DNA of 39,749 bases, taken from positions 1 through 39,749 of the forward strand of contig DUOA01000088.1 in NCBI GenBank assembly GCA_012839095.1. Reading direction: 5' to 3'. Origin of the DNA: Clostridiales bacterium. Lineage in GTDB: Bacteria; Bacillota; Clostridia; Caldicoprobacterales; DTU083. Both the position numbers and the translations under genes were made by a program. The notes under the pieces are model-generated. The model worked only from the letters and a program-made list of their open reading frames with translations, was not told where the DNA came from and searched no databases. This document shows, one piece after another, positions 16,200 to 19,742 of this stretch (position 1 is its first letter; each line of letters starts with the position of its first letter).

Positions 16200-17501
16200 T
16201 TGGAGAAATTTCATATATCAGGTGGGAAACCGCTTGCCGGAACAGTTCATATAGGAGGGGCAAAAAACGCAGCTGTGGCAATTATGCCTGCTGTTCTTCT
16301 GGCAGATGAACCTTGTACCATCTACAACATACCCTATATAGACGATGTAATCATACTGGCAGACATACTGGAAGAGGTTGGTGCCAAGGTTTCTTTAAAC
16401 AGCGGAGGCTGTGCCGTTATTGACGGTTCTTCAGTGACCTGCAATAAGGCACCATATGATATGGCGAAGAGGATGCGGGCCTCCTATTATCTGCTGGGGG
16501 TACTGCTCGGAAAATTCGGCGAGGCTGAAATCCCCCTGCCCGGAGGCTGTGAAATCGGCGCCCGGCCAATTGACCAGCACATTAAGGGTTTTGAAGCACT
16601 TGGTGCTAAGGTGGATATTGAGCATGGAGTGGTTAAGGCCAGGGCAGACAGGCTGGTTGGAAACGAGATTTATCTGGACGTTGTCAGCGTTGGCGCTACC
16701 ATCAATATCATGCTTGCTGCTGTAAGGGCTGAGGGTTCCACTACCATCGTCAATGCAGCCAAGGAGCCTCATGTGGTGGATGTGGCCAACTTTCTCAATA
16801 CCATGGGAGCACGTGTAAAAGGTGCAGGCACCGATACCATCCGGATCAAAGGTGTGGACAGAATGAACGGCTGCGAATACACCATCATTCCCGATCAGAT
16901 TGAGGCAGGCACCTTTATGATAGCAGCTGCGGCCACCGGTGGAGACGTTGTAGTCGCCGATGTCATTCCCAAGCATCTGGAATCCACTACTGCCAAACTG
17001 CTGGAAATGGGTATGGAGGTAATTGAAGGGGACGACTATATCAGGGTTAGAGGAATCAGAAAGCCCAGAAAGGTCAACATAAAAACTCTGCCATACCCCG
17101 GATTCCCGACGGATCTGCAGCAGCCCATATCAGTTCTGTGCAGCATTGCCAAAGGTACCAGTATCATAACAGAGAGCCTTTTTGACCACCGTTTCCGCCA
17201 TGTGGAGGAGCTTCGCAGAATGGGGGCCAATATCAAGGTGGAGGACAGGGTGGCCATCGTTGAGGGAGTAGACGCTCTCACAGGAGCCCTGGTGTCCGCT
17301 ACGGACCTGAGAGCAGGAGCGGCGCTTATTATAGCCGGGCTGACTGCACAGGGAGTTACAGAGGTGGAAAATATTCACTATATAGATCGGGGCTACGAAA
17401 AAATAGAAAAGAAGCTGTCAGCAATCGGGGCTGATATAAGGAGATTGAAGGACGGAGAGAATCTTTTGAAGGTTATCTCATCCAATATAGCCGTAAGGTA
17501 G
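16200..17501 (+). CDS. murA: UDP-N-acetylglucosamine 1-carboxyvinyltransferase
   Basis: 433 aa, normal MurA length. It transfers enolpyruvate from PEP to UDP-GlcNAc, the first committed step of peptidoglycan synthesis in the cytoplasm. Family signatures include ISGGKPLAGTVHIGGAKNAAVAIMPA, MRASYYLLGVLLGKFGEAEIPLPGGCEIGARPIDQHIKGFEALGA (the Cys of PGGCEIG is the fosfomycin-reactive residue) and PYPGFPTDLQQP. The start is a TTG at 16200: MEKF matches the usual N-terminus and an in-frame TAG at 16176-16178 rules out longer forms. The strong AGGAGGTGA is oddly placed at 16161-16169, more than 30 nt upstream; the nearer candidate is only GGGG. A terminator follows the gene. Confidence 0.97.
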   Translation: MEKFHISGGKPLAGTVHIGGAKNAAVAIMPAVLLADEPCTIYNIPYIDDVIILADILEEVGAKVSLNSGGCAVIDGSSVTCNKAPYDMAKRMRASYYLLGVLLGKFGEAEIPLPGGCEIGARPIDQHIKGFEALGAKVDIEHGVVKARADRLVGNEIYLDVVSVGATINIMLAAVRAEGSTTIVNAAKEPHVVDVANFLNTMGARVKGAGTDTIRIKGVDRMNGCEYTIIPDQIEAGTFMIAAAATGGDVVVADVIPKHLESTTAKLLEMGMEVIEGDDYIRVRGIRKPRKVNIKTLPYPGFPTDLQQPISVLCSIAKGTSIITESLFDHRFRHVEELRRMGANIKVEDRVAIVEGVDALTGALVSATDLRAGAALIIAGLTAQGVTEVENIHYIDRGYEKIEKKLSAIGADIRRLKDGENLLKVISSNIAVR

Positions 17502-17519
17502 AATGAGTTCTTAGACTGG

Positions 17520-17554
17520 CATTGGTCATGCAATCGGTTATGCAATGGTTTTTT
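17520..17554 (+). terminator. intrinsic terminator after murA
   Basis: CATTG-(GT)-CAT (17520-17529) pairs with ATG-CAATG (17540-17547), an 8-bp stem with a 2-nt bulge, followed by GTTTTTT. Confidence 0.65.
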
Positions 17555-17581
17555 ATTCATTATTTTGTGGTTAAAGGAAGC

Positions 17582-17611
17582 TTAAGACAGCCATTGGATT
17601 GACAACATAAT
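17582..17611 (+). promoter_or_regulatory. candidate promoter of the ABC-F leader
   Basis: TTAAGA (17582-17587) and CATAAT (17606-17611) are 18 bp apart. A perfect TTGACA at 17599-17604 also lies here but has no matching -10. Transcription would begin about 20 nt before the leader-peptide ATG. Confidence 0.4.
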
Positions 17612-17639
17612 ACGTAAAACAGGAGAAAAGGAGAAAGAA

Positions 17640-17666
17640 ATGAGGATTTGTTTCTTAGCCGGATAA
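17640..17666 (+). CDS. leader peptide MRICFLAG of the ABC-F attenuator
   Basis: An 8-codon ORF, ATG 17640 to TAA 17666, preceded by AAAAGGAGAAAGAA, one of the strongest ribosome sites in the window. It lies just upstream of a long terminator hairpin and 313 nt before an ABC-F gene. Short leader ORFs in this position are known from ribosome-mediated attenuation of antibiotic-resistance ABC-F genes. The hydrophobic ICFL core is compatible with a drug-dependent stall, but that is inference. A small hairpin (AATCA/TGATT, 17665-17681) overlaps its stop codon. Confidence 0.65.
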   Translation: MRICFLAG

Positions 17667-17684
17667 TCAAAATATCTGATTGAT

Positions 17685-17764
17685 GCATGTGCAGTGGGCA
17701 AGCAGACTGCGGTGCGCTTAAGGCATACATAATGTATTGTATGTCTTTGTTGCGGTGCTTTTTT
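17685..17764 (+). ncRNA. transcription attenuator of the ABC-F gene
   Basis: The terminator form pairs AAGCA (17700-17704) and CTGCGGT (17707-17713) with GTTGCGGTGCTT (17749-17760), stacked below an inner 10-bp helix AAGGCATACA/TGTATGTCTT (17720-17729 with 17738-17747), and ends in six Ts (17759-17764). The antiterminator form pairs 17685-17695 (GCA, then TGCAGT) with 17706-17715 (ACTGCG, then TGC), which consumes the whole lower 5' arm of the terminator. The two are mutually exclusive. Ribosome position on the leader peptide could choose between them. Confidence 0.65.
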
Positions 17765-17845
17765 ATTATGCGTCAATCACCAGCTAAGGGACAATTGTCA
17801 TACAGTATCTAATTTTCTTCATCTGCTTTTTTATTCCTTTGAGAC

Positions 17846-17890
17846 AGAACTGTTATTGGACATTTGTTCATTAGCAGTTCTTTTGTTTTG
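17846..17890 (+). terminator. second terminator-like hairpin in the ABC-F leader
   Basis: AGAACTG (17846-17852) pairs with CAGTTCT (17875-17881); an inner GGAC/GTTC helix with loop ATTT fills the loop, and TTTTGTTTTG follows. It is still about 90 nt upstream of the ABC-F start, so it would be a second block to read-through. Confidence 0.5.
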
Positions 17891-17978
17891 CAAAAACAGC
17901 TCCCGCAGAACCTGACGCTGAAGCAAGCAGTGCTGACAAAAGCGGGGTGCTGAATTGCCATGAAGGAGTGATCTTTAT

Positions 17979-19742
17979 ATGCTGCTGCTTCAATGCATAG
18001 ATATAAAAAAGAATTTTGGAATAAATGAGGTACTGAAATCCGTCACCCTGGACCTGGAGGAAGGCGAAAGGACAGGGCTGGTGGGAAAAAACGGGGCAGG
18101 TAAAACCACCCTTGCAAACATAATCGCAGGAAACCTGAAGGCTGATGAGGGTGAAGTTCGCTGGCACAGAAAGGATGTGGAAATCGGATATCTGCGGCAG
18201 TCGGTTTTCTATACCGCTGAACTGCTGCATGAGCTATGCCGGGAGCAGGACGTGTTTAATCAGGCAAAGGAATTTCTTCACCTTTCCAGCGAACTGGGCA
18301 CGGAAAAGGTGCATCAGTGGGCTGATGAACGCTTTGAGGCCTTGAGCGGAGGCGAAAGGACCAAGCTGGCCCTGGCCCATATCTGGTCAGCCAAGCCCGG
18401 ACTCCTGATTCTGGATGAACCCACAAATCACCTGGATATTCAGGGAGTACAATGGCTCATAGATGAACTGAAGGGTTATCCGGGAACAATTCTTGTCATA
18501 TCCCATGATCGCTACTTCCTGGACAAAACGGTGAATCGCATTCTTGAGATTGAAAACGGTGTGATTCATGAGTACAAGGGCAGCTATACGTTTTACCGCA
18601 ATGAGAAGAAAAAACGATACGAATCCCGGCTTCACGCCTATGAAGTCCAGAAAAAACAGGAGGAAAAACTGGAACAGGAGATAAGAAGGCTTAAGGCCTG
18701 GGCGGGCAAGGCTCACAGGGAGTCGACAAAAAAGGGTGCCAAAAGCGGTAACAAAATGGGTACAAAGGAATATTTCCGGGTTAAGGCAAAGAAGATGGAC
18801 AGGCAGGTTAAGTCCGCTGTGAAGCGGCTGGAGAAGATGAGAAGTGAAGGAGCAGAAAGACCCGGGGAAGAGCCTCTTATTTCCTTTGAATTCAGTCAGA
18901 AGGATGCCCATGGAAGAAGGATCCTGGAGGCCTATGAAATACGAAAAAGCTTCGGAGAAAAGGTTCTGTTTGAGGAAAGCAGCTTTTATCTGCAGCGGGG
19001 GGAAAGAATGGGCATATATGGGCCCAATGGCTGTGGTAAAACCACATTGGTAAGAGCTGTCCTCGGAATGGAAAAGGTGGAAGGCAGGCTTTTTGTGTCT
19101 CCTTCGATAAAGATAGGATATGTCAGCCAGGATGTACTTGAGCTTAAGAAGGAGAAGAGGGCCCTTGATCTGTTTGAAGTATCCGGCAGAAAGGAGCAGG
19201 GCAGAATACGGACCATGCTGGCCAACCTGGGACTGAATGAACTGCTTTTGCATCAGCCTCTTAAGAATCTGAGCATGGGGGAACGAACAAAGCTCAAGCT
19301 GGCCAATCTTCTGGTTAGTGAATATGATATGCTGATACTTGATGAGCCTACAAATCATCTGGATCTATACACAAGGGAACAATTGGAGGACGCCCTGCAG
19401 GACTATGAGGGTACCATACTGCTTGTCACCCATGACAGATATATGTTGGAGAAAATCTGCAGCAAGCTGCTGATTTTTGATGAAAGAAGAATTAAACGGG
19501 TGGAACACGGCCTGGAGGAATACTTAAAGAAACAGGAACATTTGAACAGGGCAGAAAGAGCAAAAGGACCCCAAAAGACAGAAAAGAGCCTGACTCCGGA
19601 GGAAGAACGCATGCTGCTGGAGAATCGCATATCTGCAGTGCTGAGCAGATTAAGCGAAACTGAGCCGGGAACGCCGGACTATCAGGCTCTGGATGAAGAG
19701 TTCAGAGAACTTACTGCAAAAAGGAAAAGTGCCCTCCTATAA
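17979..19742 (+). CDS. ABC-F family ATPase, likely antibiotic-resistance (ribosome protection) type
   Basis: 587 aa with two ABC domains and no membrane segment. Domain 1 has Walker A GLVGKNGAGKTTL, signature LSGGERTKLAL and Walker B LLILDEPTNHLDI. Domain 2 has GIYGPNGCGKTTL, LSMGERTKLKL and MLILDEPTNHLDL. The interdomain linker (about 205-290) is long and basic (KAHRESTKKGAKSGNKMGTKEYFRVKAKKMDRQ), the arm that enters the ribosomal E/P site in Vga/Lsa/VmlR/CplR-type proteins. ATG 17979 follows GAAGGAGTGA. The attenuated leader supports a drug-inducible role, probably against lincosamides, pleuromutilins or streptogramins; the spectrum is inference. Its stop overlaps the convergent malic enzyme stop by 6 bp. 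Confidence 0.9.
   Translation: MLLLQCIDIKKNFGINEVLKSVTLDLEEGERTGLVGKNGAGKTTLANIIAGNLKADEGEVRWHRKDVEIGYLRQSVFYTAELLHELCREQDVFNQAKEFLHLSSELGTEKVHQWADERFEALSGGERTKLALAHIWSAKPGLLILDEPTNHLDIQGVQWLIDELKGYPGTILVISHDRYFLDKTVNRILEIENGVIHEYKGSYTFYRNEKKKRYESRLHAYEVQKKQEEKLEQEIRRLKAWAGKAHRESTKKGAKSGNKMGTKEYFRVKAKKMDRQVKSAVKRLEKMRSEGAERPGEEPLISFEFSQKDAHGRRILEAYEIRKSFGEKVLFEESSFYLQRGERMGIYGPNGCGKTTLVRAVLGMEKVEGRLFVSPSIKIGYVSQDVLELKKEKRALDLFEVSGRKEQGRIRTMLANLGLNELLLHQPLKNLSMGERTKLKLANLLVSEYDMLILDEPTNHLDLYTREQLEDALQDYEGTILLVTHDRYMLEKICSKLLIFDERRIKRVEHGLEEYLKKQEHLNRAERAKGPQKTEKSLTPEEERMLLENRISAVLSRLSETEPGTPDYQALDEEFRELTAKRKSALL

Follow-up and report, generated by a model that had tools for sequence, protein, structure and literature searches.

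A putative three-strand transcription attenuator with an eight-codon leader upstream of a VmlR2-like ABC-F gene

Introduction

Short upstream open reading frames (uORFs) control several ABC-F genes. In Bacillus subtilis, the vmlR uORF encodes MIN and lies in an anti-antiterminator stem, which is accompanied by a mutually exclusive antiterminator, an intrinsic terminator and a NusG pause (PMC9226507). Drug-stalled ribosomes on the uORF induce the gene, a plan that was shown experimentally, and control includes sequestration of the gene's Shine-Dalgarno sequence; vmlR-type uORFs of other Bacilli encode MDN, MDK and MRK (PMC9226507). The cplR gene of Clostridioides difficile has the uORF MRI (consensus MR[I/M]) and combines transcriptional with translational attenuation, again shown experimentally, and the uORFs reported for VmlR2 and LsaA are MK[L/Q] and MAGN (PMC10201436). 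The same paper cites lmo0919 (VgaL) of Listeria monocytogenes as a further leader-controlled ARE-ABCF gene.

Here we describe a leader encoding MRICFLAG in the window, the whole 39,749-nt stretch of Clostridiales DNA that was analysed. The attenuator principle is known; we did not find this version described. MRICFLAG is absent from the literature searched, and the passages of a 2010 survey of premature terminators that list ABC-transporter leaders (PMC2965389) do not mention it. The leader matches no Rfam 15 family at the gathering score, the single match being a chance one (E 3.5). It would extend leader-controlled ABC-F genes from the known uORFs of 3–4 codons (MIN, MK[L/Q], MR[I/M], MAGN) to a type of 7–8 codons that is deeply conserved in little-studied Bacillota. 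Natural codon, truncation and frame variants of this type separate the role of the peptide from that of the RNA, and bear on a question raised in PMC10201436, namely which uORF features let lincosamide- and pleuromutilin-type drugs be sensed.

Results and discussion

A VmlR2-like ABC-F gene and its leader

The protein encoded downstream of the leader passed the NCBIfam model for ribosomal protection-like ABC-F proteins (NF000355; 472.9 bits against a cut-off of 380) and stayed under the cut-offs of the CplR, Vga, Msr, Lsa, Sal and OptrA subfamily models, far short of it in the case of CplR (305 against 780 bits). The nearest relative with a solved structure is VmlR2 from Neobacillus vireti (PDB 8BUU), which scores 540 bits compared with 365 bits for VmlR and 214 bits for the much less similar lmo0919 product. 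VmlR2 also ranked first in a fold comparison (43% identity, against 34% for VmlR by fold alignment) that used a predicted structure with a mean pLDDT of 77. Judging from these similarities, the product is an ARE-type ABC-F protein nearest to VmlR2. The first-pass annotation, which proposed an attenuator of the vmlR and lmo0919 kind, was right about the class, ribosome-mediated transcription attenuation with a leader peptide before a resistance-type ABC-F gene, and its eight-codon ORF and ribosome site are confirmed.

The immediate upstream neighbor of this unit is murA (16200-17501), and no clear terminator was found between murA and the leader (window 17502-17639). The leader RNA could start at a weak promoter candidate (Table 1), which in the consensus scan is overall no better than chance, or else by co-transcription with murA, so that the attenuator may lie inside one murA–ABC-F transcript. 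At several same-family loci the upstream end, read by eye, resembles the end of murA, and at one of them (L009) the leader Shine-Dalgarno sequence begins only about 25 nt past the end of the upstream frame.

Table 1. Features of the leader and ABC-F gene in the window
Feature	Positions	Strand	Basis
Weak sigma-70-like promoter candidate (AAGACA, 16 nt, CATAAT)	17584-17611	+	Consensus scan, 9/12 matches
Leader ORF Shine-Dalgarno, AGGAG	17629-17633	+	Sequence; nearly all collected leaders have a similar site
Leader ORF MRICFLAG, 8 codons + TAA (ATG at 17640, TAA at 17664-17666)	17640-17666	+	Conserved in 10/10 same-family orthologues and in more distant relatives
Strand 1, leader codons TTGTTTCTTAGC, putative anti-antiterminator with strand 2	17648-17659	+	Duplex search and covariation
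Bridging stem P1, 5' arm; predicted to bring strands 1 and 2 together	17677-17689	+	Folding
Apical hairpin of the P1 arm (the first-pass 'terminator')	17720-17747	+	Folding
Bridging stem P1, 3' arm	17767-17779	+	Folding
Strand 2, GCTAAGGGACAA; pairs with strand 1 (off) or strand 3 (on)	17783-17794	+	Duplex search, covariation, folding
Intrinsic terminator: hairpin 17848-17879, U-tract CTTTTGTTTT 17880-17889	17848-17889	+	Conserved hairpin, compensatory changes
Strand 3, TTGTTCATTAGC, terminator 3' arm, complementary to strand 2 (antiterminator)	17864-17875	+	Complementarity, covariation, folding
ABC-F gene Shine-Dalgarno, AAGGAG	17963-17968	+	Sequence
ABC-F ribosomal protection-like protein, 587 aa, VmlR2-like	17979-19742	+	NCBIfam NF000355; 8BUU match

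The locus has a uORF with its own Shine-Dalgarno sequence, an anti-antiterminator that contains the uORF, and a terminator before the gene. It shares with vmlR the plan of a short uORF in an anti-antiterminator stem, an intrinsic terminator and an ARE-ABCF gene, together with an antiterminator that in the window is predicted by folding, and with cplR the Met-Arg start of the uORF, a 5' hairpin, a terminator and a PLSA-type ABC-F protein. It differs from both in its eight codons, where vmlR and cplR have three. The cplR terminator overlaps the Shine-Dalgarno sequence of the gene, whereas that of the window is placed 131 nt ahead of the start codon, its end falling about 100 nt short of the gene. 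VmlR2 is the closest protein, but its uORF consensus is MK[L/Q] and the window type is MRxx(F/I)LA; lmo0919 is alike in being a leader-controlled ARE-ABCF gene and unlike in protein sequence. On present evidence, the window leader fits the vmlR/cplR plan with a longer ORF whose codons themselves form a pairing strand.

Conservation of the leader ORF

Eleven of 13 genomes searched from the family of the window genome have the ABC-F gene, the window's own included. All ten same-family orthologues (L009 to L018) carry a leader at a similar place, about 240–510 nt upstream of the gene: MRICFLAS, MRNCFLA, MRNCFLAE, MRISFLAR, MRNCSLAG, MRRIFLAF, MRKIFLAA, MRRIFLAA and, twice, MRICFSVR. Two of these orthologues (L014 and L015) have one in-frame stop each in the translated ABC-F match (TGA and TAG), which may reflect assembly error or decay. 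Wider searches of the class (391 genomes), the phylum (398) and one further order (63), in which many of the relatives' genomes were fragmented, added distant ABC-F genes of 39–51% identity, many with leaders at the same place; within the phylum these include related leaders of the form M-R-x-x-F/I-L-A. The distant leaders of 7–8 codons include MRKxILA at ten loci, MRNSILA, MHKRTLA, MHKCFLA, MINLFLA, MFIKFLAF, MFIHVLN and MRITVLK, and those of 3–6 codons MRK, MRR, MRIQ, MFIRS and MFIKCS. A scan of genome contigs found only distant ABC-F genes, one searched family (f23) yielded zero additional orthologues, and the exact leader sequence was present, in a class-wide search, only in the window genome and one other (G003).

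The choice of leaders outside the family relied on visual inspection or a simple Shine-Dalgarno rule, and at several loci no leader was found, so the following counts are of collected leaders and not of all genes. Codon 2 encodes Arg in 30 of 42 leaders, by five different codons (CGC, AGG, CGG, AGA and CGA). Among the 30 leaders of 7–8 codons, Leu6 is present in 27 (CTG, TTA or CTT) and Ala7 in 25, likewise with synonymous changes, and 11 different residues occur at codon 4, which is Cys in the window. The conservation of the leader ORF is far beyond chance, and the retention of residues through synonymous change speaks for translation of the ORF.

Predicted pairing of the leader codons with a downstream segment

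Codons 3–7 of the same-family leaders are complementary to a segment (strand 2) that lies 71–159 nt beyond the ATG. Strand 2 is itself complementary to strand 3, the 3' arm of a hairpin with a U-tract behind it. In an alignment of 11 leaders with blocks chosen by hand, 93.8% of the cells of the 1:2 helix and the terminator are paired and 15 of 25 pairs show changes on both sides, with a covariation score of 0.429 compared with 0.213 ± 0.022 in shuffles and 0.08–0.13 for slid pairings. The 1:2 helix alone has double changes at 10 of its 12 pairs. Covariation is weaker for the 2:3 helix, where 71% of cells are paired, four pairs show double changes and the score was reached by 16 of 500 shuffles. 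L013/L014 and L033 provide the clearest examples: all three strands there differ from those of the window and yet retain their mutual fit. The leader ORF, the 1:2 pairing and the terminator are conserved. Most same-family relatives also have, by inspection, a P1-equivalent stem of different sequence.

An automatic search for complements of the leader codons, made without presetting strand 2, returned a match for strand 1 of the window that 2 of 200 shuffles equaled. For 9 of 14 leaders the complement was matched by just 0–8 of 200 shuffles; the result was weaker in L010, L013, L014 and L017 (16–32 of 200) and not significant in L018 (148 of 200). The top match in L010, L014 and L034 was a segment other than strand 2.

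A T-rich stretch (CTTTTTTATTCC, window 17826-17837) lies between strand 2 and the terminator, and some relatives have a similar one at the same place. It might serve for NusG pausing (TTNTTT), as in vmlR.

Predicted folding of the leader with and without a ribosome

In the free whole leader, the 1:2 helix is predicted to form (15.6 bp expected) with a terminator occupancy of 0.93. With a ribosome on codon 1, 2, 3 or 4, under a model that hides all RNA to 15 nt past the ribosome and leaves the U-tract in the polymerase, predicted terminator occupancy is at most 0.03 and the 2:3 helix reaches 12–13 bp. The fold with the 1:2 helix and terminator and the fold with the 2:3 helix are mutually exclusive in these calculations for the window. 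In stepwise transcripts, formation of the 2:3 helix has begun in the RNA that ends at 17867, in which the terminator arm is still incomplete. When a 30-nt block was slid along the leader, the terminator was turned off via the 2:3 helix only if strand 1 was covered and the stop not reached (17631-17660).

An earlier stall calculation left the 5' end with the Shine-Dalgarno region and part of the U-tract free to pair, and was repeated without them. With this pairing allowed, stalls from codon 4 onward gave no switching; without the U-tract, a ribosome even at the stop codon switches the window terminator. The dependence on the exact codon differs between the two calculations and is not robust. 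Strong equilibrium switching was seen in 7 of 24 leaders, so the others must rely on kinetics or on another antiterminator, unless the wrong hairpin was chosen.

Proposed mechanism and alternatives

We propose that the leader is a ribosome-mediated transcription attenuator of the VmlR2-like ABC-F gene, to which we assign a probability of roughly 0.8. In the off state, the leader ORF would be translated quickly and the ribosomes would leave, strand 1 would pair with strand 2, and the terminator would fold and halt RNA polymerase ahead of the gene. In the on state, a ribosome stalled on the first codons would cover strand 1 and free strand 2, which would pair with strand 3 as the latter emerges; terminator folding would be blocked and the ABC-F gene transcribed. 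Its product would then free ribosomes from the drug and so reset the switch. Probable inducers are the pleuromutilins, the lincosamides and streptogramin A, drugs that interfere with translation at initiation or directly afterwards and that are associated with VmlR, VmlR2 and CplR, the nearest characterized proteins. We infer cellular translation of the leader, stalling by drugs, read-through and the drug spectrum.

The same switch might instead sense slow translation in general, whether caused by any inhibitor, by a ribosome assembly defect or by starvation, and not particular drugs. The calculation without the U-tract, in which the window terminator is switched whatever the position of the ribosome on the leader, agrees with this, as does the induction of vmlR by ribosome assembly defects (PMC9226507), and a three-codon leader such as that of L086 offers little sequence to read. 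However, the retention of Arg2, Leu6 and Ala7 through codon changes suggests some reading of the sequence, and we regard the general sensor as rather unlikely.

For the drug-responsive attenuator, the first-pass annotation had cast the peptide as the sensor. The kept Arg2 and Leu6-Ala7 with their varied codons speak for this, but some relatives keep the RNA strand regardless of the peptide. In L086, a natural test of the peptide's role against that of the RNA, the leader lies about 288 nt ahead of the ABC-F gene and has a stop at codon 4 (MRK*); the RNA after the stop is kept and still folds onto its downstream partner. L059 and L060/L061 have GTTCTTAAC in common but read it in different frames (MFIHVLN and MFIRS). 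Since L086 and L060/L061 keep the strand despite a cut or shifted frame, codons 4–8 probably act at least partly as RNA. A purely RNA role is argued against by Leu6 and Ala7, which persist across groups whose codons and partner strands differ. Both roles can be true. We suggest, tentatively and at somewhat less than even odds, that two devices are combined in one: drug-bound ribosomes would read the start of the peptide (Met-Arg, perhaps Leu6-Ala7), the same codons would serve as an RNA strand that is kept when the frame is cut or shifted, and MRxx(F/I)LA would define a drug-stalling leader class that is both widespread and undescribed.

A very improbable alternative is the switch originally drawn for this leader, in which transcription ends at a hairpin and T-run in 17700-17760 and is rescued by an antiterminator helix of 17685-17695 with 17706-17715. 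A real hairpin does exist there (17720-17747), as do the six Ts (17759-17764), and pausing or some termination is possible. However, the hairpin folds in the same way in the free leader and in all codon-stall states and ends about 11 nt short of the T-run, and by inspection neither is conserved in relatives. The antiterminator helix is nearly absent (1.8 bp expected, both free and with a stall at every codon), and no switching between the two structures appears in the folded states. A small hairpin seen over the stop codon can form locally but is minor in the whole free leader (0.7 bp expected), and its region differs in relatives by inspection. Of the conservation expected for the peptide and both helices, that of the peptide held and that of the helices, by inspection, did not. 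The conserved terminator and the three-strand pairing had been overlooked, the terminator lying about 85 nt downstream of the region annotated. The hairpin 17720-17747 and its T-run might act as a pause site, like the hairpin between the switch elements in vmlR. Scarcely credible, and rejected on the ground that codon 4 is free to vary, is an amino-acid attenuator in the manner of trp and his, in which the leader would respond to charged tRNA for Arg, Cys or Leu. The conservation of Arg2 and Leu6 speaks for it, but the leader has no run of one residue, codon 4 takes its 11 residues among 30 leaders, and the gene encodes an ABC-F factor and not a protein of biosynthesis or transport.

Leaders of other builds

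Two ABC-F genes from another family (L033 and L034; 43–44% identical) have the leaders MIIFSCK and MCGYSF and a terminator immediately before the gene. Strand 3 (CTTTCC) there also resembles the complement of the gene's Shine-Dalgarno sequence, which suggests control of translation in addition. Three further loci (L073, L074 and L075) have longer leaders of 13–16 codons (MRIQTATDNLVTC, MRIRPATWITGSHTVL and MRFKAGTEISHILR), with a common GGTGAGACTG after or near the ORF and TCTCACCCCC ahead of the gene; these are perhaps translational attenuators of another build.
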